A DNA stretch of 64,000 nt from NCBI GenBank assembly GCA_017651265.1, contig JAGCDO010000062.1, positions 1 through 64,000 on the forward strand, given 5' to 3'. Positions within the stretch are counted from its first letter, which is position 1. Each line of letters starts with the position of its first letter. The notes beneath the pieces were generated by a model, which searched no databases, was not told the DNA's origin, and was given only the letters and a program-made list of their open reading frames with translations. The stretch is from Prevotella sp. (GTDB lineage: Bacteria > Bacteroidota > Bacteroidia > Bacteroidales > Bacteroidaceae). Of the stretch, positions 4,513-62,711 are shown piece by piece. The position numbers and the translations under genes were made by a program.

Positions 4513-4517
4513 CTCAC

Positions 4518-4552
4518 AACTGTCAACTGTCAACTGTCAACTATCAACTGTC
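4518..4552. repeat. Heptamer array, Gfo/DUF4421 junction
   Basis: Five tandem 7-bp units (AACTGTC four times, AACTATC once) fill the gap between two cotranscribed genes. The stop codon of the oxidoreductase (4551-4553) lies in the last unit. The unit is TCAACTG in another phase, sharing the TCAA core with the arrays at 18056, 22982 and 55797. Confidence 0.85.
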
Positions 4553-5534
4553 AGAACTTCCCTAACACTCTGTCAAGCACCCAGTTCACGGGCGTGGCAC
4601 TCACGCTTGTGGCCGTACAGATACCGATACCTTGCAGATCCTCAATCACAGAGCGGATAATAGGTAACTGCACGTATGGAGGATTGGGAACAACAATCTC
4701 CGTGGAGCCCTCGCTGGTAACTAAGCGAATGGGATCATAGTTATAAACGGAGAAACTCAAGGTGCCCTGCTCACCAATCATCTCAATACAGTCCTCCTGA
4801 GCCGACTGATGACCAACAAAACACCAAGAACCGCTGCCGGGAACGCCACTCTCGAAACGGAAACATGCACTCACACTATCTTCTGCCTTGTACAGATGAC
4901 CGCAATTGGCACAGATACCATCGGCCTCAGTAATTACGCCGAAGATATCCTGCAGCAGATCGAGTTGATGCGGGGCTAAGTCATAGAAATAACCACCTCC
5001 GGCAATGGCAGGCTGCAGTCGCCAAGGAAGCGTTTCCTCAGAGGTATAATCCAAATCGCGCGGCGGAACAGAGAAACGTATCTGTACGTTGACGATATTT
5101 CCTATCACCCCACCCTGAACAATCTCTTTTACACGCTGGAAGTACGGGAGGTAACGACGGTAGTAGGCCACAAAGCAGGGAACGCCCGTCTCCTCACTCA
5201 CTCTGTTGATGCGTACACACTCGTCGTAGCTGGCCGCCAAAGGCTTCTCCACATAAACTGGTTTTCCCGCCTTCATGGCCATGATGGCGAAGGTGGCATG
5301 ACTGCTGGGTGGTGTGGCCACATAGATGGCGTTTACATCGGGATCGTTGATAAGTTCCTGCGCATCAGTGTAGTACTTAGGAACATGATGACGCTCTGCG
5401 TAAGAGCGGGCACGACGTTCGGTGCGACTCATCACCGCCACGACTTTCGATCCCGTCACCTCATTAAAGGCCGGTCCCGACTTCTTCTCAGTTACCTCAC
5501 CGCAACCGATAAAACCCCAATTGATCAGTTTCAT
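4551..5534 (-). CDS. Gfo/Idh/MocA family oxidoreductase
   Basis: A 327-residue NAD(P)-dependent sugar or inositol dehydrogenase-like protein. The N-terminal Rossmann fold opens with GFIGCGEV (residues 7-14), followed by AIYVATPPSSHA and the family's EKP motif (residues 96-98). The C-terminal domain carries GGGYFYDLAPHQLD, where the His-bearing motif is usually catalytic. Substrate cannot be told from sequence. First gene of a likely operon with DUF4421, DUF1460 and a beta-barrel. Its -7 box (5540-5547) is so close to the ATG that the transcript is probably leaderless. Confidence 0.9.
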   Translation of the reverse strand: MKLINWGFIGCGEVTEKKSGPAFNEVTGSKVVAVMSRTERRARSYAERHHVPKYYTDAQELINDPDVNAIYVATPPSSHATFAIMAMKAGKPVYVEKPLAASYDECVRINRVSEETGVPCFVAYYRRYLPYFQRVKEIVQGGVIGNIVNVQIRFSVPPRDLDYTSEETLPWRLQPAIAGGGYFYDLAPHQLDLLQDIFGVITEADGICANCGHLYKAEDSVSACFRFESGVPGSGSWCFVGHQSAQEDCIEMIGEQGTLSFSVYNYDPIRLVTSEGSTEIVVPNPPYVQLPIIRSVIEDLQGIGICTATSVSATPVNWVLDRVLGKF

Positions 5535-5691: not shown

Positions 5692-5801
5692 CTATGGTAT
5701 CGAGGTGCAATATCATAGATATTAGAGTCTGAAAGCATAGGTATTGGAGCCTAAAACCATAGGTATTGGAGTCTAAAACCATAGGTATCGCAATGCAAAA
5801 C
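5692..5801. repeat. Five 22-bp tandem units
   Basis: Units start at 5692, 5714, 5736, 5758 and 5780. The consensus begins CATAGGTATTGGAG; the two central units differ at a single position and the outer ones are diverged. No spacers, so this is not a CRISPR array. No reading frame is maintained. Confidence 0.8.
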
Positions 5802-5903
5802 CTAACAATTCAATTTTTGAATTCACAAAACTGGCGCAACATACACGGATTTCGCTGGAAACACCTTTATATACGAGAGAAATGGGTGTTTTCAACATAC
5901 ACG

Positions 5904-5946
5904 CAACATACACTATACGGGCTTTAACATACACGCAACATACACG
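5904..5946. repeat. 43-bp perfect inverted repeat, left arm
   Basis: Exact reverse complement of 6136-6178. The arm contains ACATACACG motifs and the unique stretch CTATACGGGC. Confidence 0.9.
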
Positions 5947-5969
5947 CAACATACACGCAACATACACGC
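5926..5969. repeat. Four 11-bp tandem units AACATACACGC
   Basis: Four consecutive perfect copies overlap the end of the left inverted-repeat arm. Fewer copies are found in inverted orientation around 6136-6198. Confidence 0.85.
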
Positions 5970-5990
5970 GAGATTCACATGAGAGTTATT

Positions 5991-6077
5991 GTTCCCAACA
6001 TGGGAATAAAAAGTTCCCAACATGGGAATAAAAGTTCCCAACGTGGGAATAAAAAGTTCCCAACGTGGGAATAAAAA
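5991..6077. repeat. Four tandem palindromic 21-22-bp units
   Basis: Units begin at 5991, 6013, 6034 and 6056. Each contains the dyad TTCCCA-n3-TGGGAA followed by an A-run. The first two carry ACA and the last two ACG in the dyad centre. A dimeric DNA-binding protein site array or a set of small hairpins would look like this. Confidence 0.85.
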
Positions 6078-6135
6078 GAAACTATGCTACTCTCTCATAG
6101 AAACTAAGCCACTTATCTTCGCAACAACCCGTCGG

Positions 6136-6178
6136 CGTGTATGTTGCGTGTATGTTAAAGCCCGTATAGTGTATGTTG
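6136..6178. repeat. 43-bp perfect inverted repeat, right arm
   Basis: Reverse complement of 5904-5946 without mismatch. With 5904-5946 it encloses about 190 bp that includes the palindromic tandem units. Confidence 0.9.
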
Positions 6179-6440
6179 GTGTATGTTGCGTGTATGTTAA
6201 AACTGATAGAATTCCCTTTATTTATTGGGATTTCCGTGTTTTTTCGTGTACCTTTGAGTGAGTTTTATAAATTGTCCATAAATTGAAGTGACTAATACCA
6301 GTAATGCAAAAAACTTAAGATTGACAAAAAAAGCATTCATTCTTTTGGATGTGCGACTAACTTTCGTTACCTTTGACTTCGTCGATATTGCTCACGCTCG
6401 GCAATTGATGCAAGCATCATTGCTCTCACTTAAACGCAAC

Positions 6441-10148: not shown

Positions 10149-11000
10149 ATGTTAAGGATAGCTGTACAATCCAAAGGTCGTCTGTTTGAAGACACCATCA
10201 ATCTGCTGACAGAAGCCGATATCAAGATCAGTGCGTCAAGGCGCACATTGTTGGTTCAGTCGTCTAACTTCCCCCTCGAAGTGCTGTACCTGCGTGATGA
10301 TGACATCCCGCAAAGTGTGGCAAGCGGTGTGGCCGACATCGGTGTGGTGGGCGAAAATGAGTTCGTAGAACGCCACGAGGATGCGGAGGTCATCTCACGC
10401 TTGGGCTTCAGTAAGTGCCGGTTGAGTCTGGCCATCCCCAAGAGTATCGACTACCCAGGTTTGGAATGGTTCAATGGTAAGAAGATTGCCACCTCCTACC
10501 CCTATATCCTCCGCCGTTTCCTGGAGGAGAAAGGAATCAACGCCGACATCCATGTGATTACTGGTAGCGTTGAGATCAGTCCGGGTATCGGACTGGCCGA
10601 CGGTATCTTTGATATCGTTAGCAGCGGCTCTACCTTGGTAAGCAATAACCTGAGCGAGGTGGAAGTGGTGATGCAGAGTGAGGCCCTGCTTATCGCCAAC
10701 AAAAATTTGAGTGAGGACAAACGTCAGATCCTAGCCGATATGCTCTTCCGCTTCGAGGCTGTGAAACAGGCGGAGGATAAGAAATATGTGCGTATGAATG
10801 CGCCGAAGGCCAAGTTAAAGGAGATTATCGAGGTACTGCCTGGACTGAAGAGTCCTACCATCATCCCATTAGCCGACGAAGAATGGTGCTCTGTGCATAC
10901 CGTGCTCGACCAGAAACGGTTCTGGGAGATTATCGGTAAGTTGAAAGAGTTGGGCGCGCAAGGTATTCTGGTGACTCCCATCGAAAAGATGATTCTGTAA
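10149..11000 (+). CDS. hisG: HisG, ATP phosphoribosyltransferase (long form)
   Basis: A 283-residue enzyme starting at ATG 10149 (MLRIAVQSKG); the frame is open further upstream but that would cross the promoter. It makes phosphoribosyl-ATP from ATP and PRPP, the first and feedback-regulated step of histidine synthesis. Residues 1-205 hold the two catalytic lobes with the PRPP-loop region GIFDIVSSGSTLVSN (about 155-170); residues ~210-283 are the ACT/PII-like regulatory domain typical of the long form, which does not need HisZ. Leads hisG-hisD-hisC. Confidence 0.96.
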   Translation: MLRIAVQSKGRLFEDTINLLTEADIKISASRRTLLVQSSNFPLEVLYLRDDDIPQSVASGVADIGVVGENEFVERHEDAEVISRLGFSKCRLSLAIPKSIDYPGLEWFNGKKIATSYPYILRRFLEEKGINADIHVITGSVEISPGIGLADGIFDIVSSGSTLVSNNLSEVEVVMQSEALLIANKNLSEDKRQILADMLFRFEAVKQAEDKKYVRMNAPKAKLKEIIEVLPGLKSPTIIPLADEEWCSVHTVLDQKRFWEIIGKLKELGAQGILVTPIEKMIL

Positions 11001-11001
11001 A

Positions 11002-11036
11002 ATTGAAAATTGATAAATGATAATTGAAAATTAAAA
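11002..11036. repeat. Heptamer array, hisG/hisD junction
   Basis: Five units of exactly 7 bp (ATTGAAA, ATTGATA, AATGATA, ATTGAAA, ATTAAAA) run from 1 bp after the hisG stop to the base before the hisD GTG start. On the other strand the core is again TCAAnnn. Confidence 0.88.
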
Positions 11037-13454: not shown

Positions 13455-13513
13455 GTGGAATGAGAATTCTCATTCCACATTCCTCATTCCACATTCCACA
13501 TTCCTCATTCCAC
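13455..13513. repeat. 24-bp perfect palindrome followed by six heptamers
   Basis: 13455-13478 is a perfect palindrome with the centre GAATTC. Its right half continues into six 7-bp units (ATTCCAC or ATTCCTC) to 13513, just before the stop codon of the convergent peptidase gene. It may act as a two-way terminator between hisC and that gene. The unit differs from the TCAA type but keeps the 7-bp period. Confidence 0.8.
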
Positions 13514-18024: not shown

Positions 18025-18055
18025 AATTATACAGTTTAAAATTATTCTTATTATT

Positions 18056-18097
18056 TAATTTTCAATTTTCAATTCTCAATTCTCAATTTTCAATTCC
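18056..18097. repeat. Heptamer array, cstA/beta-barrel junction
   Basis: Six 7-bp units (CAATTTT, CAATTCT, CAATTCC and one TAATTTT). The last residues of CstA (LKIEN) and its stop codon (18076-18078) are encoded within the array. Confidence 0.88.
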
Positions 18098-21432: not shown

Positions 21433-22296
21433 ATGAAACCCACAGCAATTATGCTTCTGCACTGCCCGGATCAGCCTGGCATCATTGCAGAAATAACCAA
21501 GTTCATCACGGATAACAACGGTAACATTGTCTATCTAGACCAGTATGTTGACCGTCAGGATGGAATGTTCTTCATGCGCATTGAATGGGAACTTGACCAG
21601 TTCCTCGTACCGCGTGAAAAGATCAAGGAATACTTCGAAACGCTCTATGCACAGCGCTATCAGATGACCTTCAGTCTGTACTTCAACGACGAGAAGCCGC
21701 GCATGGCGATCTTCGTATCGAAGATGAGTCATTGTCTGTACGACCTGCTGGCACGCTGGAAGGCGGGAGAGTTCGATGTGGAGATTCCTTGTATCGTATC
21801 CAATCATGAGGACCTCCGCTACGTGGCTGAGCAGTTCGACATCCCCTACTACGTGTGGAGCATCAAGAAAGACCACTCGAACAAGGCTGAGGCGGAAGCT
21901 GCCGAGATGGAACTGCTGAAGGAAAAGAAGGTGACATTCATCGTGCTGGCCCGCTATATGCAGATTATCAGCGACGAGATGATTGCCAAATATCCGCACC
22001 ATATCATCAATATCCACCATTCGTTCCTGCCAGCCTTCATCGGCGCCAAGCCTTATCATCAGGCATGGGAAAGAGGCGTGAAAGTGATTGGTGCTACCAG
22101 TCATTATGTAACAGCCGACTTGGATGCGGGTCCTATCATTGAGCAGGACGTGACACGCATTACCCATAAGGACACACCAGAGAGTCTGGTACTCAAAGGC
22201 AAGGACCTGGAGAAGATCGTGCTCTCACATGCAGTATCCAAGCATATCCAGCGTAAGATTCTCACCTACAACAATAAGACAATCATATTTAGCTAG
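21433..22296 (+). CDS. purU: PurU, formyltetrahydrofolate deformylase
   Basis: A 287-residue enzyme that hydrolyses 10-formyl-THF to formate and THF, supplying formate for purine synthesis. Residues 5-80 are an ACT domain (LLHCPDQPGIIAEITKFI); residues 90-280 are the formyltransferase fold with LARYMQIIS, the catalytic HHSFLPAFIGAKPYHQAW and GATSHYVTADLDAGPIIEQD. Complete. Its stop codon lies in the GTGAGAG-type heptamer array that leads to hisH. Purine and histidine synthesis share AICAR, which may explain the neighbourhood (inference). Confidence 0.95.
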   Translation: MKPTAIMLLHCPDQPGIIAEITKFITDNNGNIVYLDQYVDRQDGMFFMRIEWELDQFLVPREKIKEYFETLYAQRYQMTFSLYFNDEKPRMAIFVSKMSHCLYDLLARWKAGEFDVEIPCIVSNHEDLRYVAEQFDIPYYVWSIKKDHSNKAEAEAAEMELLKEKKVTFIVLARYMQIISDEMIAKYPHHIINIHHSFLPAFIGAKPYHQAWERGVKVIGATSHYVTADLDAGPIIEQDVTRITHKDTPESLVLKGKDLEKIVLSHAVSKHIQRKILTYNNKTIIFS

Positions 22297-22333
22297 AAGT
22301 GAGAAGCTAGAGGTGAGAGGTGAGATAGTGAGA
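22291..22333. repeat. Heptamer array, purU/hisH junction
   Basis: Units AGCTAGA, AGTGAGA, AGCTAGA, GGTGAGA, GGTGAGA and an 8-bp TAGTGAGA. The purU stop TAG (22294-22296) is part of the first unit. A short 9-bp array (TTCGTCTAA-like, about 22341-22366) follows. The same heptamers recur inside hisH at 22753-22780. Confidence 0.85.
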
Positions 22334-22384: not shown

Positions 22385-22996
22385 ATGCAAGTTGCAATAG
22401 TTAAATATAATGCAGGGAATGTGTATTCCGTGGTGAACGCTGTCAGACGACTGGGAATTGATCCGGTGCTGACCGATGATCCCGTACTGCTCGGACAGGC
22501 CGACCGCGTGATCTTTCCAGGACAAGGGGAGGCACGTACCGCCATGGAGTATCTGCATCAGCACGGACTAGTGGAGGTGATTCGCTCACTCAAGCAACCC
22601 GTACTGGGCATCTGCATCGGACAGCAGTTACTGTGCAGCCATTCCGAGGAGGGAGATGTCGACTGCATAGGCATCTTCGACGCGGAGGTGAAACGGTTCC
22701 AGCCGCAACGGCACGAAGACAAGGTACCATGCATGGGATGGAACAGAATAGAGGTGAGAGGTGAGAAGCCAGAGGTGAGAGACCTGTTTGCCGGACTCGG
22801 TGAGGATCCCTACGTCTATTTCGTACACAGCTACTATGTACCGCTGTGCAACGATACGGCTGCCGTGTCCGACTATATCCTGCCCTACTCTGCCGCCCTG
22901 CAAAAAGATAATTTCTATACCTGCCAGTTCCACCCGGAGAAGAGCGGTAGCGTGGGCGAAAGAATACTTAGGAACTTCATCAACTTTGAACTTTGA
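22385..22996 (+). CDS. hisH: HisH, IGP synthase glutaminase subunit
   Basis: A 203-residue class I glutamine amidotransferase that feeds ammonia to HisF. The nucleophile Cys is in LGICIGQQLL (~80), with the His/Glu pair near the C-terminus in FHPEKSG. A loop at about residues 123-135 (IEVRGEKPEVRD) is encoded by four heptamers of the GGTGAGA type. The usual sequence around it (MGWN before, YFVHSYY after) is intact. The last residues and the TGA stop lie in a TCAAAGT-type array. Confidence 0.95.
   Translation: MQVAIVKYNAGNVYSVVNAVRRLGIDPVLTDDPVLLGQADRVIFPGQGEARTAMEYLHQHGLVEVIRSLKQPVLGICIGQQLLCSHSEEGDVDCIGIFDAEVKRFQPQRHEDKVPCMGWNRIEVRGEKPEVRDLFAGLGEDPYVYFVHSYYVPLCNDTAAVSDYILPYSAALQKDNFYTCQFHPEKSGSVGERILRNFINFEL
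22753..22780. repeat. In-frame heptamers inside hisH
   Basis: Units GGTGAGA, GGTGAGA, AGCCAGA, GGTGAGA match the array just upstream of the gene (22291-22333). The upstream AGCTAGA, which carries a TAG, appears here as AGCCAGA, which does not. The copy encodes part of a loop before the FVHSYY motif. Confidence 0.8.
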
Positions 22997-23023
22997 ACCT
23001 TGAACTTTGAACTTTGAACTTTA
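22982..23023. repeat. Heptamer array, hisH/hisA junction
   Basis: Six units AACTTTG with single variants (AACCTTG, AACTTTA). The hisH stop TGA (22994-22996) lies within it, and hisA starts 3 bp after it. Same unit as the arrays around the four-helix-bundle gene and between the ABC genes. Confidence 0.88.
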
Positions 23024-25291: not shown

Positions 25292-26002
25292 ATGTTGATA
25301 GAATACAAGAAAGTACGTATCTTCCAGGAAGATGTATGTGTGTTGAACGATGTTGACTTCCATGTGGAGGAAGGCGAGTTCATCTACATCATCGGTAAGG
25401 TGGGATCAGGAAAGAGCTCACTCCTGAAGACCACCTATTGTGAGCTGGACATTGAGAGCGGTGAACAGGCAATGGTGCTCGACCGCGATATCTTGAACAT
25501 ACGACGTAGGGAGATTCCTGCCCTGCGGAAGGAGATGGGTATCATCTTCCAGGATTTCCAGCTGCTGCACGACCGCACAGTGGCCAAGAATCTACGCTTC
25601 GTACTGAAGGCTACGGGATGGAAGAACAAGAAAGAGATTGAGGAACGCATCGACGAGGTATTGGAGATGGTGGGCATGCTGGAGAAAAAGGACAAGATGC
25701 CCCACGAGCTGTCGGGCGGTGAACAACAGCGTATCGCCATCGCCAGGGCTATCCTGAACAAACCCAAGATCATCATCGCCGACGAGCCCACGGGAAACCT
25801 CGACCCTGAGACCGCAACCTATATCATCGACCTGCTCCGACAGATCAGTCAGACGGGTACGGCCATCGTTATGACCACGCATAATATCCCGATGCTCGAC
25901 AAGTTCCCTGGGATTGTCTATCGCTGTAAAGACGGTGCCATCTATGACGTTACGAACGATTATAACAAGATGGACCTAACGGAAGACTCGGAGGATAGTT
26001 GA
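25292..26002 (+). CDS. ftsE: FtsE-like ABC ATPase
   Basis: A 236-residue ABC ATPase. Walker A GKVGSGKS (~36-43), Q-loop IIFQDFQLLHDRTV, signature LSGGEQQR, Walker B IIIADEPTGNLD and the switch His in MTTHN. The sequence pattern is that of Bacteroidetes FtsE, which with FtsX controls peptidoglycan hydrolases at the septum; a LolD-type exporter ATPase is the alternative. No FtsX permease is adjacent, so it works with a partner elsewhere. The stop codon lies in a heptamer array before lysC. Confidence 0.82.
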   Translation: MLIEYKKVRIFQEDVCVLNDVDFHVEEGEFIYIIGKVGSGKSSLLKTTYCELDIESGEQAMVLDRDILNIRRREIPALRKEMGIIFQDFQLLHDRTVAKNLRFVLKATGWKNKKEIEERIDEVLEMVGMLEKKDKMPHELSGGEQQRIAIARAILNKPKIIIADEPTGNLDPETATYIIDLLRQISQTGTAIVMTTHNIPMLDKFPGIVYRCKDGAIYDVTNDYNKMDLTEDSEDS

Positions 26003-26031
26003 CAGTTGATAGTTGACAGTTGACAATTAAG
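25997..26031. repeat. Heptamer array, ftsE/lysC junction
   Basis: Units AGTTGAC, AGTTGAT, AGTTGAC, AGTTGAC and AATTAAG. The ftsE stop TGA (26000-26002) lies in the first unit. It is the reverse complement type of the array at 4518-4552. Confidence 0.85.
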
Positions 26032-54062: not shown

Positions 54063-55799
54063 TTGATTAAGAAACTGATACAACAGGTGAGGCAGTTCCG
54101 TACTGCCGCCTTTCTCACCCCATTGTTCACCGCCCTCGAAGTGGTGATGGGCGTACTGATACCGTATGTTACCTCGTGGATTATCGACCGTGGTATCATG
54201 GCGGGCGATCTCAAGCAAGTATATCTGTATGGCGGACTGATGCTGGTCATGGCCTTCTTCAGTATGCTGTTCGGTATCTTAGCGGGCAGGTTCTCTGCCT
54301 ACGCCTCCTCAGGATTCGCCTCTAACCTGCGCAGTGCGATGTTCAGGAACATCCAGACATTCTCGTTCTCAAACATCGACAAGTACTCCAGCGGTGGCCT
54401 CATCACCCGTATGACCACCGATGTGCAGAGTCTGCAACAGGCTTTCCAGATGCTGATGCGCATCTCCGTGCGAGCCCCGCTGAACCTGGTGTTCAGTGTG
54501 TTCATGTGCGTTTTCATCAACCTGAAGATGAGTATGATCTTCGTGGTGGCCCTGCTTATTTTAGGTACGGCCCTATACATGATCATCTCACGCACCGTGA
54601 AACTCTTCGCACAGGTGTTCCAGCGCTACGACGATCTGAACAGCTCCGTGCAGGAGAATATCGCTGCCATCCGCGTGGTGAAGGCTTTTGTCAGGGAGGA
54701 CTTCGAGAAGAAGAAGTTCGGTAAGGCGGCAGAAGCCCTGTATAAGCTGTTTGTCAAGACCGAGAGTCTGCAGGCCCTCAACCACCCCATCATGATGATG
54801 GTGGTCTATGGCTGCATCATCTCCCTGTCGTGGTTCGGAGCCCAGTTCATTGTCGTTGGCGACCTCACCACGGGTCAGCTCACTTCTCTGTTCACCTACG
54901 TCATGACCATCCTCTCCTCGCTGATGATGCTGTCGATGATCTTCGTGAACCTCACCATGAGTGCGGCCAGCGCCAAGCGTGTGATTGAGGTGATTGACGA
55001 GAAGGCCGACATCACCAATCCCGAGAAAGATGCGGTGATGGAAGTGGCCGACGGCAGTATCGACTTCGACCACGTGAGCTTCAGCTACGGCTCAGCACCG
55101 CCTTACGCCATCCGCGACATCAACCTGCATATCCACAGTGGTGAAACCATCGGTGTGATTGGTGGAACAGGCTGCGGTAAGTCATCCTTAGCCACCTTGG
55201 TGAGTCGCCTATACGACACCACCGAAGGTACAGTGAAGGTGGGCGGAGTGGATGTCAGACAGTACGATCTCACCGCCCTGCGCAACGAGGTGTCGATGGT
55301 ACTGCAGAACAATGTCCTCTTCTCAGGCTCTATCCTTGATAATCTGCGCTGGGGAAAGGAAGATGCCACGTTGGAGGAGTGTCAGGAAGTGTGCCGACTG
55401 GCTTGTGCCGATGAGTTCATCGAACAGATGACCGATGGCTACAATACCTATCTGGAACAGAACGGCAGTAATGTGTCGGGCGGACAGAAGCAGCGTCTTT
55501 GCATTGCCCGTGCCCTGCTGAAGAAACCTAAGATCCTGATCCTCGACGATTCCACCAGCGCCTGCGACACGGAAACCGATGCACGTATTCAGAGAGCGTT
55601 CCGCGAGCAGCTGCCCGAGGTAACCAAGCTCATCATTGCCCAGCGCATCCAGAGCGTGATGTATGCCGACCGTATCATCGTGATGCAGAGCGGACAGGTT
55701 ACGGGCTTCGATACGCATGAGAACCTCCTGAAGAACAATGCACTCTATCAGGAGATCTATCAGATACAGACCAAGGACAAGGGCGACTTTGATCATTGA
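54063..55799 (+). CDS. ABC exporter half, degenerate ATP site
   Basis: A 578-residue ABC exporter subunit (six membrane helices, then nucleotide-binding domain), TTG start. Walker A GGTGCGKSS and signature VSGGQKQR are intact, but the Walker B ends LILDDST instead of DE, and the switch motif reads IIAQRIQS where AHR is expected. Both the catalytic Glu and His are thus replaced, as in heterodimeric exporters such as TM287/288 and TmrAB. Partner is the next gene, joined through a heptamer array that begins in this gene's stop codon. Substrate unknown (drug or lipid). Confidence 0.92.
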   Translation: MIKKLIQQVRQFRTAAFLTPLFTALEVVMGVLIPYVTSWIIDRGIMAGDLKQVYLYGGLMLVMAFFSMLFGILAGRFSAYASSGFASNLRSAMFRNIQTFSFSNIDKYSSGGLITRMTTDVQSLQQAFQMLMRISVRAPLNLVFSVFMCVFINLKMSMIFVVALLILGTALYMIISRTVKLFAQVFQRYDDLNSSVQENIAAIRVVKAFVREDFEKKKFGKAAEALYKLFVKTESLQALNHPIMMMVVYGCIISLSWFGAQFIVVGDLTTGQLTSLFTYVMTILSSLMMLSMIFVNLTMSAASAKRVIEVIDEKADITNPEKDAVMEVADGSIDFDHVSFSYGSAPPYAIRDINLHIHSGETIGVIGGTGCGKSSLATLVSRLYDTTEGTVKVGGVDVRQYDLTALRNEVSMVLQNNVLFSGSILDNLRWGKEDATLEECQEVCRLACADEFIEQMTDGYNTYLEQNGSNVSGGQKQRLCIARALLKKPKILILDDSTSACDTETDARIQRAFREQLPEVTKLIIAQRIQSVMYADRIIVMQSGQVTGFDTHENLLKNNALYQEIYQIQTKDKGDFDH

Positions 55800-55831
55800 A
55801 CTTTGAACTATGAACTTTGAACTTTGAACTA
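55797..55831. repeat. Heptamer array spanning exactly stop to start in ABC pair
   Basis: Five units (TGAACTT, TGAACTA, TGAACTT, TGAACTT, TGAACTA). The first three bases are the stop codon of the first subunit and the last base is the A of the ATG of the second. The array therefore is the whole junction. Confidence 0.9.
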
Positions 55832-57840
55832 TGCCACCAAGAATGAACATGGGACCCGGCGGAAGAGGCGGGCACGGAGGAAGGAACATGGGAATCGCCA
55901 AGATGCCCAAGGGCGGAATGAAGCTCATCAGACGACTCATCCGCTATGTAGCAGTGAACTACAAATGGTCGCTGCTGGCCGTACTGGTATGTATCCTCAT
56001 TACCTCGGTCACCACCCTCACCTCTACCCTCTTCACCCGAACACTCATCGACGATTATATCCTGCCCCTCACACAGATGGAGCATCCTGATTTCACCCCA
56101 TTGGCACACGCCCTGATGAAACTCGCGGCCGTGCTCATGGTGGGCGCCTTGTGTTCCTATATCCACAGTAGGTTGATGATCAACGTGAGTCAGGGCACGC
56201 TGAAGCGTCTCCGCATCGACGTGTTCAGTCATATGCAACAGCTGCCCATCAAGTATTTCGACACCCATGCCCACGGCAACACCATGTCGGTCTATACCAA
56301 CGATATCGACACGCTGCGCCAGATGATCAGCTCCATGCCGAACCTCTTCTCCTCGCTCGTCACCATCATCCTCACCCTTACCAGTATGATCGTGTTGAGT
56401 CTGCCGCTTACCATCCTCACCTTCCTCATGTCGATGGTGATGATCTACACCACGCGCAAGCTGGGCAGCCGGTCGTCGAAGTTCTTCTATGCGCAGCAGA
56501 CCAACCTGGGAAACATGAACGGTTTTGTGGAGGAGATGCTCACCGGTCAGAAGGTAGTGAAGATCTTCTGTCATGAAGACGAGGCCGTCGATCAGTTCCA
56601 GCAACTGAACGAGAACCTGCGGTCGAGCACCTACAACGCCAACCGCGTGGCCAATATCGTGATGCCCGTAAACGGAAACCTGTCGAACCTCATCTATGTG
56701 ATGACCGCCATCTTCGGCGCCATGCTCGCCCTGCGCTACAGCTTGAATGCCACACCTTTAGCTACTCCCATGACACCCCTTGTGGGCGAGGTACTGCCCA
56801 TCGCATCGGCCCTCACCGTGGGAACCCTCGTCAGCTTCCTCACCCTCATCAAGAACTTCACCCGTCCTATCTCCGAGGTGTCCAACCAGATCAACAGCAT
56901 CATCAATGCCGTGGCTGGTGCCATGCGTGTGTTTGATGTGCTCGATGCGGAACCCGAGAAGGAAGAGCAGGCCGATGTCACCTTGGTGAATGTCAGGGAG
57001 CAGTCAGACGGTACACTCACAGAGACCAAGGATTCTACGGGTATCTGGGCATGGAAGACCACCGACGGACTGGTTCGGCAGCGTGGCGAGGTGGATTTCT
57101 TCGGAGTTGACTTCAGCTACCCCATTATTCAGGAAGACGGAAAGGAAGGTCTTGGACGACAGGTGTTGTTCGACATTGAGATGGACACTGATGCCGGACA
57201 GAAGATTGCGCTGGTGGGTGGTACAGGTGCTGGTAAGACCACCATCACCAACCTCATCAACCGCTTCTATGATATTCAGGACGGACGCATCCTGTACGAT
57301 GGTATCAATATCAGCAGCATCCGTCGCCAGGAACTGCGACGCTCCTTGGGTATGGTACTCCAGGAGACGCACCTCTTCACCGGAACGGTCATGGAGAATA
57401 TCCGCTACGGCAGGTTGGAAGCCACCGACGAGGAGTGTATTGCTGCCGCCAAGCTGGTCCATGCTGACGATTTCATCAGTCGTTTGTCAGAGGGTTACCA
57501 AACCATGCTCACTGGCGATGGCGGGAACCTCTCCCAAGGAGAGCGCCAGCTCATTGCCATTGCCCGCGCCGCCGTGGCCAATCCGCCAGCCCTGATTCTC
57601 GACGAGGCCACCAGTAGCATCGATACCCGCACCGAACAGCTCGTGCAGCAAGGTATGGACTCGCTCATGCAAGGGCGCACCACCTTCGTCATTGCCCACC
57701 GTCTCAGTACCATCCGCAATGCCGACTGGATCATGGTGATGGACCACGGTCGTATCATTGAGCGTGGCAACCACACCCAGCTCCTTGCCATGAAGGGCAA
57801 GTACTACCAGCTCTATACAGGAAATCAAATCACAGCATAG
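55831..57840 (+). CDS. ABC exporter half, canonical ATP site
   Basis: A 669-residue partner subunit. A Gly/Arg/Met-rich N-terminus (residues 1-30) precedes six membrane helices; the nucleotide-binding domain carries Walker A GGTGAGKTT, signature LSQGERQL, Walker B LILDEATSS with the catalytic Glu, and IAHRLST with the switch His. An extra ~50 residues between membrane part and ATPase (~385-435) contain an EQSDGTLTETKDSTG-like loop. Together with the upstream subunit it forms a heterodimer with one hydrolysing site. Confidence 0.92.
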   Translation: MPPRMNMGPGGRGGHGGRNMGIAKMPKGGMKLIRRLIRYVAVNYKWSLLAVLVCILITSVTTLTSTLFTRTLIDDYILPLTQMEHPDFTPLAHALMKLAAVLMVGALCSYIHSRLMINVSQGTLKRLRIDVFSHMQQLPIKYFDTHAHGNTMSVYTNDIDTLRQMISSMPNLFSSLVTIILTLTSMIVLSLPLTILTFLMSMVMIYTTRKLGSRSSKFFYAQQTNLGNMNGFVEEMLTGQKVVKIFCHEDEAVDQFQQLNENLRSSTYNANRVANIVMPVNGNLSNLIYVMTAIFGAMLALRYSLNATPLATPMTPLVGEVLPIASALTVGTLVSFLTLIKNFTRPISEVSNQINSIINAVAGAMRVFDVLDAEPEKEEQADVTLVNVREQSDGTLTETKDSTGIWAWKTTDGLVRQRGEVDFFGVDFSYPIIQEDGKEGLGRQVLFDIEMDTDAGQKIALVGGTGAGKTTITNLINRFYDIQDGRILYDGINISSIRRQELRRSLGMVLQETHLFTGTVMENIRYGRLEATDEECIAAAKLVHADDFISRLSEGYQTMLTGDGGNLSQGERQLIAIARAAVANPPALILDEATSSIDTRTEQLVQQGMDSLMQGRTTFVIAHRLSTIRNADWIMVMDHGRIIERGNHTQLLAMKGKYYQLYTGNQITA

Positions 57841-59182: not shown

Positions 59183-59211
59183 AAGGGCGATCACAACGAT
59201 CGCCCTTTTCT
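59183..59211. terminator. Two-way terminator between DUF2807 and amylase genes
   Basis: Arms AAGGGCGATC (59183-59192) and GATCGCCCTT (59198-59207), T-run on the plus side. It separates convergent genes and touches the amylase stop codon. Confidence 0.82.
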
Positions 59212-61088
59212 TATGCTTTGAACTTCAGAACGACAGCTCCAAGCGGTGGGAGCTGCATACTGACCGCCTCATCACGTCTCAGCACTATTCTCTTTTTCTT
59301 GCCCGAAAGCAAATCGGTAGCGATGGCGTTCTTCTCCTTGATCTGCAGATAATCGAAGGCATGGGAAGGAATCGTCACAGCCATGTCAACCGACTGCTCC
59401 TCGAAGTTTGCCACAACCAGTAACACCTCGGTGTCTGATTTACGCAGAAAAGCATATTGGCGTTGATACTGCTGATTCACATACATCAGATCGAACGACG
59501 CACCTTCGGCAACGCTTTTCTCTGATCGTGCGATGTTCAGCACCTTGTCATACATTGCCTTCAATGCCTTCTCCTCCTTCGTGAGCTTCCGTTGCTCAGC
59601 CCTCGTCAGCGTATCCACGCACCAATAATCGAAGATCGTGGTTCGTCCGTCTTTACCGCTGAAACCCTCTTCATCCATGCCCCGCTCGCCATATTCCTGT
59701 CCTGCATAAAGCATGAACGGATTCTGTTGCAACAGCACGCTGACAATCAAACCAGGAATTCCCTTCTCAGCCTTACCCGCGAAAAAGTCAGAGGCGATGC
59801 GCTGCTCATCGTGGTTCTCCAGGAAATACAGCATGTGGTCGCGGATATCATCCGTTGCCTGCCACTGAGAGGTAATATCTGTCGTACTGCGTCTTCCACA
59901 AATCACGTCACGGATACAGTCGTACATCCCCACCTTATCATACAGGTAATCAAACCCCGCACCGATATAGGTACGGTACTGGTTCGGATCATACACCTCA
60001 CCGATAAAAAGACAGTCAGGATACAGGAACTTCACCTTGTCGGTTGCCCAGTTCCAGAAGGCTGCAGGCACCATCTCGGCCATGTCGCAGCGGAATCCGT
60101 CTATCCCCTTCCCTGCCCAGAAAAGCAGGATGTCCGTCATCTTTCCCCACGTGTTGGGAATCGGATCAAAGTGTTCCGACCGTCCCCCAGCATCACAGTA
60201 GTCAATGCCATAGTTCAGCTTCACCGTCTCATACCAGTCGTTCCTACCAGGTTGGTTCGAGAACTGATCGTTACCCGTTGCACGTGCTGGAAGTTCCTCG
60301 TATCTTTGAACTTTGAACTTTGCGCTCGGCTCTGCCGCTTTGCTTTGCAAAGAACTTTGAACTTTATGATTACCATTGTCTATTGAACTTTGAACTTTGA
60401 GCTTTGAGCTTTGAACTTTATGATTACCAATGGCTATTGAGCTTTGAACAGGTTGATCAATTTTTTCTTGATCAGAAATCATATCATAAAGTTCAAAGTT
60501 CAAAGCTCCATGTTCAAAGTTACATGCTCCATGTTCAAAGTTACATGTTCCATGTTCAATGTTAGAGAGATCCAGCGGTTGCCCCCAGCAGTAGTAGAAG
60601 TTATTCTTGGTGGAGAAGTGCATGGTGGTGTCATCCTCCTCGCCCAGATCCTTCACCCCCTCAGGTTTGCAGATACTCTTGTATTCGCGCGCCACATGAT
60701 TCGGTACGAAGTCGATAACCACCTTCATGCCCGCCTGATGAACCCGTTCCACCAGCGCCTCGAACTCACCCATTCGGTTGTTCACATCCTCGGCCAGATC
60801 AGGGTCTATATCATAGTAATCAACTATGGCATAAGGCGACCCCGCCCTACCCTTCACCACCTCAGGATGTTGTGTTGGAATGCCGTACGCCGAGTAGTCG
60901 GTCTGCGTAGCATGGCGAATCACGCCGGTGAACCAGATATGGCTCACGCCCATCGCCCTGATATTCTTCAGGACAGTGGGCGTGAAATCATTCATCTTTC
61001 CGCATCCGTTTTCGGTCTGCGAACCATTCTTGATCCGAGCCGTGTTACGATTGCTGAAAAGACGTGTAAATACTTGATACACTATCAT
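59211..61088 (-). CDS. GH13 alpha-amylase family protein with heptamer-encoded insert
   Basis: A 625-residue protein from ATG 61088 (MIVYQVFTRLF); the frame extends 8 codons upstream into a heptamer array. GH13 barrel motifs: VIDFVPNHV, GIDGFRCDMAEM (nucleophile Asp), FIGEVYDPN (acid Glu) and FLENHDEQR (third Asp), then a C-terminal beta domain. No signal peptide is evident, so it may be cytoplasmic. Residues ~176-262 are encoded by heptamer repeats (NFEHGAC, KVQSSKL units) in a loop between CWGQPLDLS and YEELPARATGNDQF. All catalytic motifs are intact, so the insert is probably tolerated. Confidence 0.9.
   Translation of the reverse strand: MIVYQVFTRLFSNRNTARIKNGSQTENGCGKMNDFTPTVLKNIRAMGVSHIWFTGVIRHATQTDYSAYGIPTQHPEVVKGRAGSPYAIVDYYDIDPDLAEDVNNRMGEFEALVERVHQAGMKVVIDFVPNHVAREYKSICKPEGVKDLGEEDDTTMHFSTKNNFYYCWGQPLDLSNIEHGTCNFEHGACNFEHGALNFELYDMISDQEKIDQPVQSSIAIGNHKVQSSKLKVQSSIDNGNHKVQSSLQSKAAEPSAKFKVQRYEELPARATGNDQFSNQPGRNDWYETVKLNYGIDYCDAGGRSEHFDPIPNTWGKMTDILLFWAGKGIDGFRCDMAEMVPAAFWNWATDKVKFLYPDCLFIGEVYDPNQYRTYIGAGFDYLYDKVGMYDCIRDVICGRRSTTDITSQWQATDDIRDHMLYFLENHDEQRIASDFFAGKAEKGIPGLIVSVLLQQNPFMLYAGQEYGERGMDEEGFSGKDGRTTIFDYWCVDTLTRAEQRKLTKEEKALKAMYDKVLNIARSEKSVAEGASFDLMYVNQQYQRQYAFLRKSDTEVLLVVANFEEQSVDMAVTIPSHAFDYLQIKEKNAIATDLLSGKKKRIVLRRDEAVSMQLPPLGAVVLKFKA
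60303..60563. repeat. Heptamer array inserted in frame in the amylase gene
   Basis: About 261 bp of 7-bp units (CTTTGAA, CTTTGAG, CATGTTC, CATGCTC and relatives) without frame loss. The edge motif CTTTGAACTTTATGATTA occurs at 60355-60372 and 60409-60426, and its inverted form ATCATAAAGTTCAAAG at 60483-60498. Between the inverted edges lies TGATCAA-n7-TTGATCA (about 60454-60474). It looks like a gene-less derivative of the cassette at 61089-61617. Confidence 0.85.
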
Positions 61089-61128
61089 CTTTGTACTTTG
61101 AACTTTGAGCATTGAACTTTATGATTAG
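61089..61128. repeat. Cassette left inverted repeat (40 bp)
   Basis: Heptamer array ending ATTGAACTTTATGATTAG. It pairs with 61578-61617 in 37 of 40 positions. Its outer edge touches the amylase start codon at 61088. Confidence 0.88.
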
Positions 61129-61133
61129 ATCTA

Positions 61134-61493
61134 TTATTTTGTAGCTTTGACTATTTTAGTCAATATAGCAATGATTTTGTTGCAGTCATCTTCAATAGAC
61201 ACAAACATTTCATCATTTATGAACTTCGTTTCGTGCAACAAATCAAGCCAGTAACCTGTTTCTGTTGCTTCTTTCAAAGCAATATTCATTTTTGACGAGA
61301 AGTCAGGTCTGCTTTGAGCATTCTTACCTTCGAACACGTTAGCTCCGATACTTGTACCAGAACGAAAAACCTGTTTCGACATAATAATTTCGCCTTTCTC
61401 TTCTTTCAGAAACTTATATAAGTTTACAATCCGAATGGCAAAGGAACGAACTATCACATAAACATCGTTTTCTACTTCCTTTCTCTGGAGCAT
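61134..61493 (-). CDS. Four-helix-bundle protein (S23/Avd-like)
   Basis: A 119-residue protein of the 23S-rRNA-intervening-sequence family (S23, four-helix bundle). ATG 61493 (MLQRKEVEND) is preferred over 61538, whose extra codons read through heptamer repeat. Family hallmarks: FAIRIVNLYKFLKEEK, then SKQVFRSGTSIGANVFEGKN and MNIALKEATETGYWLDLL. Relatives form pentameric helical bundles; the family includes Avd, the partner of reverse transcriptase in diversity-generating retroelements. Stop codons TAA TAG follow in tandem. Flanked by inverted heptamer arrays; no reverse transcriptase is nearby. Function unknown. Confidence 0.88.
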   Translation of the reverse strand: MLQRKEVENDVYVIVRSFAIRIVNLYKFLKEEKGEIIMSKQVFRSGTSIGANVFEGKNAQSRPDFSSKMNIALKEATETGYWLDLLHETKFINDEMFVSIEDDCNKIIAILTKIVKATK

Positions 61494-61577
61494 ATCATAT
61501 AGTTCAAAGTTAAATTGAATTTCGCTACAACCCGACAAACCTCATGCAAGCTTGGTTTTGCTCTCACAACTCATAAG

Positions 61578-61617
61578 CTAATCATAAAGTTCAATGTTCA
61601 AAGTTCAAAGATCAAAG
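61578..61617. repeat. Cassette right inverted repeat (40 bp)
   Basis: Reverse complement of 61089-61128 with three mismatches. The inner 33 bp (61578-61610) have one mismatch. The fabD stop codon begins 2 bp further out. Confidence 0.88.
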
Positions 61618-61619
61618 TC

Positions 61620-62510
61620 TTAGGCGATTCCGTGAGCGGAAACTTCTTTGTTGATCTTAGCGATCATACCCTGCAGCGCCTTGCCAGGACCGCATTCTGT
61701 GAAGTCATCAGCACCATCGGCAATCATGTTCTGAACGCTCTGAGTCCAGCGAACAGAGCTTGTGAGCTGAGCAATCAGGTTAGCCTTGATCTCAGCAGGA
61801 TCAGTGTGAGGCTTAGCATCAACATTCTGATATACAGGACATGTAGGAGTCTTGATCTCAGTAGCTTCGATAGCTGCCTGCAGCTCATCCTTGGCAGGCT
61901 GCATCAGCGGAGAGTGGAAAGCGCCACCCACCTTGAGTACCAGCGCACGCTTGGCACCAGCAGCTTTCAGCTGCTCGCAAGCCTCCTCGATAGCCTCAAC
62001 ATTACCAGAGATCACCAGCTGTCCAGGACAGTTATAGTTAGCAGGAACCACTACACCCTTGCCCAGCTTACTAACCTCAGCACAAACCTCCTCAACCTTC
62101 TCGTCGGGCAGTGCAATGATGGCAGCCATCGTTGAGGGCTGAGCCTCGCATGCTTTCTGCATCGCCATGGCACGGGCATAGACAAGCTTCAAGCCATCCT
62201 CGAAACTCAGAGCGCCAGCAGCAGTAAGAGCAGAGAACTCACCCAGAGAGTGACCAGCAGTCATCTCAGGCTTGAAATCCTCACCCATGCAGAAGGCAGA
62301 GATCACGCTGTGCAGGAATACTGCAGGCTGCGTCACCTTGGTCTGACGGAGATCCTCGTCAGTACCTTCGAACATGATGTCGGTGATTCTGTAGCCCAGA
62401 ATCTCATTAGCTTTCTCAAAAAGTTCCTTTGCTTTGGGGTTGTTATCATACAGATCCTTACCCATTCCTACGAACTGTGCTCCCTGACCGGGAAATACAA
62501 ATGCTTTCAT
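61620..62510 (-). CDS. fabD: FabD, malonyl-CoA:ACP transacylase
   Basis: A 296-residue enzyme that charges ACP with malonate for fatty-acid synthesis. MKAFVFPGQGAQFVGMG opens the fold; nucleophile Ser88 in GHSLGEFSAL; His about 199 in GGAFHSPLM; the C-terminal TECGPGKALQGM is typical. Complete. The promoter is at 62553-62560. Downstream on the same strand come the four-helix-bundle cassette and the amylase, so these may be transcribed from here. Confidence 0.96.
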   Translation of the reverse strand: MKAFVFPGQGAQFVGMGKDLYDNNPKAKELFEKANEILGYRITDIMFEGTDEDLRQTKVTQPAVFLHSVISAFCMGEDFKPEMTAGHSLGEFSALTAAGALSFEDGLKLVYARAMAMQKACEAQPSTMAAIIALPDEKVEEVCAEVSKLGKGVVVPANYNCPGQLVISGNVEAIEEACEQLKAAGAKRALVLKVGGAFHSPLMQPAKDELQAAIEATEIKTPTCPVYQNVDAKPHTDPAEIKANLIAQLTSSVRWTQSVQNMIADGADDFTECGPGKALQGMIAKINKEVSAHGIA

Positions 62511-62552: not shown

Positions 62553-62560
62553 CAAAGGTA
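62553..62560 (-). promoter_or_regulatory. Promoter -7 box of fabD
   Basis: TACCTTTG on the minus strand followed by GCAGCGC, 42 bp before the ATG. Confidence 0.65.
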
Positions 62561-62711
62561 CGAATAAGCGAGCACAGGACAAAAGAAAAAGCGTTTTTTC
62601 TTTTGTTTTGTCGAGCGAAAGTACCTTCGACGAAGTCAAAGGTACGGATAAACGAGTGAAATACAAAATAAAAAGACTTTTTATTTTTATTTCCGAGTGA
62701 AAGTACCTTCC
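62553..62711. repeat. Two tandem promoter modules upstream of fabD
   Basis: Two roughly 75-bp copies in the same orientation, each from a CAAAGGTAC edge to a GTACCTTC edge (62553-62627 and 62637-62711), joined by the palindromic core 62621-62645. Each carries an A/T-rich hairpin; that at 62580-62605 has perfect 11-bp arms. Confidence 0.72.

Follow-up and report, generated by a model that had tools for sequence, protein, structure and literature searches.

The 23S rRNA genes of Leptospira, Coxiella and other bacteria hold intervening sequences (IVSs) with a common protein family, S23p/PF05635; in Coxiella these measure 428-444 nt, and their complementary ends form a 28-bp stem that leaves the ORF in the loop (PMC4990558). 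Their mobility, as presented in that source, is a proposal only (PMC4990558). Solo heptamer arrays between genes have been described separately, as TAACTGA repeats in Beggiatoaceae, cyanobacteria and Bacteroidetes (PMC4679880) and as GGGAATC/GGGGATT repeats in Xanthomonas and Nostoc (PMC4692102). They are of the same kind as the arrays we find in S23-carrying genomes, and both sources report them without an owner. In the searchable text of PMC4679880 the terms 's23' and 'four helix' are absent, as are '23s' and 'four helix' in that of PMC4692102; S23 genes are not named in either text. The preliminary description of the locus studied here knew of no described system of this kind. This stands in that the open text of PubMed Central (preprints lying outside it), including the searchable text of the three papers above, yielded no paper joining heptamer arrays to S23 genes or IVSs, but the parts, rRNA IVSs with S23 ORFs and orphan heptamer arrays, have each been described.

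The window, by which we mean the whole 64,000-nt stretch of Prevotella DNA analysed, holds a cassette of IVS-like size between fabD and an alpha-amylase gene (Table 1). Its 40-nt inverted repeat is complementary at 37 of 40 positions (93%), and arm-versus-arm local alignment gives a score of 65, the highest of 30 shuffles being 30. The protein encoded between the arms belongs to PF05635 (E 7e-25, 87.7 bits against a cut-off of 33.8), also matches TIGR02436 and the solved structure 2rld (E 2e-33), and has no family in PHROGs or PADLOC. Another S23 protein of solved structure is XCC0516 of Xanthomonas (2gsc). Both the inverted heptamer arms around a 119-residue S23 gene and the reported span of the element are therefore confirmed: two bases separate the fabD stop (61620-61622) from the 5' arm, the 3' arm directly touches the apparent amylase ATG, and the element fills the whole gap between the two genes; a mechanical ORF caller sets the amylase start farther up, within the arm, at 61112. 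A third arm-like copy, lying over the S23 start codon, had been missed. In the predicted RNA fold the arms pair and the ORF occupies the loop (-153.6 kcal/mol, z -5.6), and the antisense strand folds well too (z -6.2). Upstream of fabD, at 62553-62710, we also note an 84-bp unit in about two copies (77% match).

Table 1. Features of the S23 element, its neighbours and the solo arrays in the window
Feature	Positions	Strand	Remarks
5' arm (gene orientation)	61578..61617	-	tandem CTTTGAA heptamers, inner box ATGATTAG at end
3' arm	61089..61128	-	inverted TTCAAAG heptamers, adjoins amylase ATG
S23 / 23S_rRNA_IVP four-helix-bundle gene, 119 aa	61134..61493	-	
Third arm-like copy, across S23 start codon	61491..61519	-	read from sequence
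fabD, upstream neighbour, same strand	61620..62510	-	TIGR00128
alpha-amylase, downstream neighbour, same strand	59211..61088	-	apparent start ATG 61086-61088
Heptamer cluster within amylase reading frame	60304..60563	both orientations	same heptamers as arms
Solo CTTTGAA array	22982..23022	+	between two + genes, sense
Solo CTTTGAA array	55789..55833	+	between two + genes, overlaps upstream ORF end, runs into next ATG
Solo AGTTGAC array (unit of element L003)	4517..4553	-	between two - genes, sense
Solo AGTTGAC array	25994..26028	+	between two + genes, sense
Solo AATTGAA-type array (unit like element L004)	10999..11036	+	between two + genes, sense
Solo AATTGAA-type array	18048..18095	-	between two - genes, sense
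Weaker GAGGTGA-type array	22295..22325	+	between two + genes
Solo TGGAATG array	13471..13511	-	between convergent genes; no matching element found

We consider this cassette to be probably one copy of a widespread small S23 mobile element whose arms are built of a private unit. The genome of origin (G000) has seven PF05635 matches, five of which lie between inverted tandem arms, each with a different unit (GAAGCAA, GAGGAAG, AGTTGAC, AATTGAAG of 8 bp, and CTTTGAA); the two without arms are short (L006, 80 codons) or weak and below the cut-off (L007). A reading of L006 as the Avd gene of a diversity-generating retroelement (DGR) was dropped, as no reverse transcriptase (RT) was seen among its neighbouring ORFs and the sole RVT_1 match of the genome is on another contig. 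Across Bacteroidota, arms score at least 30 at 83 of 106 loci (76 of the 106 being from this genus), against 29 of 839 pairs made from the left flank of one locus and the right flank of another and 1 of 126 at shifted positions, an RT locus (L037) being left out of the survey. By subset, the score is reached at 5 of 7 loci of the own genome, 26 of 29 genus loci and 14 of 30 phylum loci (the best locus of each genome), and 38 of 40 further genus loci (L068-L107), which were hand-picked from the middle score range rather than drawn at random. The phylum sample, with clear arms in just 14 of 30, speaks against our reading.

The architecture extends to other phyla and to plasmids. PF05635 matches are present in 23 of 24 genomes chosen by hand among bearers of TAACTGA arrays (Cyanobacteria, Bacteroidota, Chloroflexi, Acidobacteria, Firmicutes, Verrucomicrobia and others), a rate that is weak evidence taken alone because 90 of 118 sampled Bacteroidota genomes carry PF05635 anyway. 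At the best one or two loci per genome in this set, scored without a separate control and with 3 of 30 loci skipped at contig ends, arms are found at 22 of 27; TAACTGA itself is abundant beside the S23 gene at only two of the 27, one Microcystis and one Chloroflexi element, on one flank each. Ten of 25 plasmid records were opened, some of them sharing a neighbourhood (L391-L393 one, L399-L400 another), and all ten have arms above the maximum of 60 shuffles; their hosts are Nostoc, Planktothrix, Bernardetia, Treponema saccharophilum and Monoglobus, and their PF05635 gene is labelled 'four helix bundle protein' or 'hypothetical protein' or is left unannotated. The one opened phage contig, of two phage records, has no arms above its shuffle maximum. 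Flanking arrays, which the preliminary description had made its first check on other family members, are thus present in most of those examined. An Rfam search of 16 loci returned no known RNA family at the elements and no rRNA, the one hit being a tRNA at a distance.

Each element owns its unit. Elements are about 490 bp long (median 486), and in the 61 of 75 with an assignable period (14 being ambiguous) this is 7 in 36, 8 in 20, 10 or 11 in 3, and 9 or 12 in 2. The fixed TCAAnnn family that had been expected therefore gives way to element-specific units, mostly of 7 or 8 bp and at times of 9-12. Left and right arms change together: in 45 pairs of elements at the same junction, median arm similarity is 0.65 within an element and 0.27 between relatives, and the within-element value is higher in 34 of the 45 pairs and in 12 of 16 independent pairs (Wilcoxon p=0.006), with 11 of the 45 running against concerted change. 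Arm similarity also follows protein identity, at 0.69 for pairs at least 70% identical (20 pairs, often from one junction in related genomes), 0.21 at 55-70% and about 0.15 below.

The arms are rich in stop codons. Stops in all three frames occur in 48 of 75 5' arms and 18 of 75 3' arms (discordant elements 37 versus 7, p=5e-6), whereas shuffles give means of 20.2 (maximum 29) and 7.3 (maximum 14), respectively. Part of this excess, in both arms, comes from the unit length itself, since a tandem repeat of that size carries any stop it contains into all frames; stops are also favoured by the richness of the 5' strand in purines. We suggest that the 5' arm would stop translation in every frame. 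If the sense-strand RNA stem were under selection, the arms should show an excess of G-U pairs, and none was seen (71 wobble mismatches sense versus 93 antisense, p=0.10); thus, pairing at the DNA level fits as well or better. Recurrent boxes mark the inner edges of the arms (L079, L090, L096, L099 and L107): TTTGCTACCGC or a near-identical sequence or, in other elements, GACAATA, ATGATTAC or small hairpins. Such boxes may be a second recognition site.

Elements follow the orientation of the genes around them. The S23 gene is on the same strand as both neighbours at 85 of 99 classifiable loci and opposite to tandem neighbours at 2; this count omits L006 and L007, five of the remaining 104 loci have an unclassified neighbour, and loci at one junction in relatives are not independent. 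The baseline, built from greedy ORFs of genus stretches only, is 437 same, 80 opposite and 308 mixed (437 of 825), so that both-same orientation exceeds it (Fisher 7e-11), also among tandem neighbours alone (85 versus 2 against 437 versus 80, 3e-4). Individual elements lie between the S and R subunits of a type I restriction system in Monoglobus (L397), with DISARM drmD on one side and an MmeI-type gene on the other in Planktothrix (L400), and directly upstream of xisH/xisI-type genes on plasmid pNsp_b of Nostoc sp. ATCC 53789 (L390). MacGregor compared the distribution of xisH/xisI with that of TAACTGA repeats (PMC4679880).

Units of these elements also stand alone. The window contains 20 arrays of period 7-11, against none in each of five Markov shuffles, and the arm heptamers recur inside the amylase and at other junctions, as had been reported (Table 1). 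Amylase residues ~190-255, where the in-frame arrays lie, are unmatched in 29 of 29 orthologues (gap 178-269 in most). The GAGGTGA-type unit is found in no element of the own genome and is present in relatives' elements L030 and L210. Densities of period 7-11 arrays, counted in 20-kb stretches that were hand-chosen, some adjacent and two holding elements (L177 left out), are 19.4 per 100 kb in G000, 17.5 in G028 and 12.0 in G044, all carriers, and 28.1 in the window. The PF05635-free genus genomes give 0.7 (G024), 1.2 (G010), 2.5 (G003), 6.4 (G042), 0 (G038) and 5.0 (G052); Markov nulls are 0, and some 9-bp arrays resemble coding repeats. For periods 7 and 8 the three carriers have 119 arrays in 862 kb, element arms included.

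The units of the solo arrays point to the same source. In G000, 53 of 61 heptamer arrays (arms included) can be assigned to the units of its five elements, with unit families picked after looking; the formal version is a comparison of own with foreign arms, made on arrays of period 7 or 8 outside S23 loci and on arms scoring at least 28 (5 loci in G000, 9 of 15 in G028, 7 of 10 in G044 and 7 of 10 in G059). Of G000's 62 solo arrays, 35 match its own arms, 3 those of G059, 2 those of G044 and none those of G028. The corresponding counts are 13 own, 12 G044 and 2 G000 for the 31 arrays of G028, and 7 own, 5 G028 and 2 G000 for the 20 of G044, a weak contrast because these two genomes share units.

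The arrays could instead be ordinary slippage-prone repeats on which S23 genes land or persist, recombination or template switching keeping the arms alike with the protein uninvolved. Heptamers are over-represented in many bacterial genomes (PMC4692102), array copy number varies among close Microcystis relatives, the arms lack wobble asymmetry, and one searched Parabeggiatoa genome, from the group in which TAACTGA arrays were described, has such arrays and, alone among the 24 genomes above, no PF05635 match, all of which would suit this reading. We nevertheless think it unlikely, given that six PF05635-free genomes of the genus hold just 3 arrays of period 7 or 8 in 378 kb, that the arms are inverted rather than direct, and that the solo arrays of G000 mostly repeat units found in its own S23 elements. 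It is on co-occurrence, unit identity and layout that we link the S23 elements to the arrays.

Two further repeats of the own genome deserve mention beside these. At window positions 5706-6249, inverted 11-bp arrays, AACATACACGC in four copies (5926-5969) and GCGTGTATGTT from 6135, surround four 22-bp repeats, with no ORF of at least 110 aa; an 11-mer of the AACATACACGC type recurs elsewhere in the genome (L150, 6796-6818), and the structure is possibly a gene-less derivative. A second dispersed repeat, with 9-bp spacing around CTAGT and unlike the heptamers, occurs in L152, L153 (for example, 1271-1320), L157 and the flank of L007.

Elements come and go at conserved junctions. The fabD-amylase adjacency is kept, and the S23 gene absent, in all 29 junctions fetched from among 52 other genomes with a fabD match, so that the cassette is not fixed at this site. 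At 4 of these 29 element-free junctions an array lies near the fabD stop, and at one of them (L114) the same heptamers form a hairpin without a gene. Comparison with the empty sites revealed no clean target-site duplication. At another junction, whose flanks we take to encode succinate dehydrogenase subunits, the DNA flanking L012 and L019 is 91-92% identical, yet their S23 proteins share 50% identity and their arms differ in unit.

Relocation was seen in Microcystis. One ~490-bp element occupies a locus in G179, G205, G201 and G202, and in G203 it is broken across two contigs; between flanks that are 92-99% identical, G204 and G206 are free of it and carry other heptamer arrays plus a few old ones, and in G207 the two flanks fall on different contigs. 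The same element, 94-95% identical, occurs at a second locus in G203, G207, G206 and G205, and G204 has no copy among the matches listed, yet many of its arrays. Each of eight Microcystis genomes has 60-82 matches to the element query, most of those listed being an arm array. Insertion and deletion are inseparable at the first locus because a few of the heptamers persist in the relatives without the element, which have other arrays as well. The data show relocation of a defined ~490-bp unit, by whatever route it moves.

These observations also bear on a regulatory reading, by which the S23 protein binds junction arrays and controls the translation or stability of operon mRNAs, the element being a resident rather than a selfish one. 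The 60 assigned arrays of G000 comprise 22 at tandem junctions in sense orientation, 6 antisense, 11 at convergent or divergent junctions and 21 in ORFs (the last by a crude ORF caller), and those at tandem junctions often cover stop and start codons. The 38 arrays outside sense tandem junctions count against our own reading. The sense bias agrees with such a role, as does the post-transcriptional role that MacGregor proposed for TAACTGA arrays (PMC4679880). The S23 protein is, moreover, under purifying selection: dS could be computed for 5 of 14 pairs, four of them near saturation, and these five give dN/dS of 0.045-0.10. We judge a resident regulator quite unlikely, as units and elements turn over fast at conserved junctions, the fabD-amylase junction is element-free in relatives, and a profile search for PF05635 comes up empty in 8 of 60 genus genomes.

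The preliminary description had read the locus as a small non-autonomous element with derivatives, possibly spread by reverse transcription in trans. Element and derivatives are supported; the proposed route is not. The own genome has a single RVT_1 match (L379, 6201-7460, C30), on a different contig from the S23 element, and it is an RT of the UG26 defence type (PADLOC RT_UG26, E 2e-160). RVT_1 has no match in G028 (15 PF05635 matches, 99% complete), G008 (11), G004, G019, G053, G046 or G055, and is present in four of the eight PF05635-free genus genomes (G003, G010, G024 and G042). Y1_Tnp, the one transposase family searched, has no match in G000 or in the carriers G008 and G058; some of the genomes with either absence are incomplete. 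We therefore reject both a detectable RT and a detectable Y1 transposase as requirements.

The wider form of this idea, a non-autonomous element moved in trans either by an RT, DGR-like and with S23 in the place of Avd, or by a Y1/REP-type transposase, appears very unlikely to us on the same grounds. A master gene with dispersed repeats does resemble RAYT/REPIN, and among 60 genus genomes 23 have RVT_1 and 34 have Y1_Tnp, both sets including carriers. Avd, a DGR accessory protein, is from a related protein family and resembles PF05635 (PMC10053308).

We return to the S23 element as an entity of its own and propose how it may work. It consists of one S23/PF05635 gene between two inverted arms, in each of which a unit particular to the element is repeated in tandem about four times, and is at home mainly at junctions of co-directional genes and in their orientation. 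In the transcript, base-pairing of the arms can form a stem that leaves the S23 ORF looped out, an arrangement shared with rRNA IVSs, and the 5' arm, with stops in all frames in most elements and a unit length that is rarely a multiple of three, could end any upstream frame. The S23 protein would recognise its own arm unit and, with host enzymes, may help both the complete cassette and solo arm arrays to spread. As arms and protein would have to match, elements would diverge into lineages with private units. Unit binding, the transposition route and stem processing are what we infer here.

In our view, S23 elements form a broad class of small mobile cassettes, each with tandem units of its own, and they have left behind many of the orphan heptamer arrays in these genomes as by-products. 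The full reading is more tentative, possible rather than probable: S23 elements as a transposase-free and RT-free class, in which a four-helix-bundle protein reads a private unit and spreads cassette and bare arrays between operon genes, with many orphan heptamer arrays as products and rRNA IVSs as one branch. Should the link prove right, one element class, in which no recombinase is recognised, would account for a large share of these bacteria's short repeats. Additionally, S23p function would be open to a simple binding assay with one candidate ligand per protein, and the unit-protein pairs would constitute many natural specificity tests.

Among known systems, the cyanobacterial STRR are heptamer arrays of a like kind. 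DGRs have an RT beside their Avd-like gene, whereas the S23 element has no adjacent RT. REPIN/RAYT systems and MITEs combine a master gene with many short dispersed derivatives at gene junctions, as S23 elements do. In contrast to REPIN/RAYT, S23 elements need no Y1 transposase, and their arms are tandem arrays and not single palindromes; with MITEs the window element shares terminal inverted repeats, a clear target duplication not being seen at the fabD-amylase site. An IVS sits in a 23S rRNA gene, and the window element, lying outside rRNA, is by definition not an IVS, yet it is built like one. Unlike IVSs, S23 elements have tandem-repeat arms with a private unit, several copies per genome, dispersed solo arrays and observed turnover. 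If this full reading is true, it would explain where many orphan heptamer arrays come from in cyanobacteria, Bacteroidota and other groups, and the rRNA IVSs would be a specialised branch of these elements.
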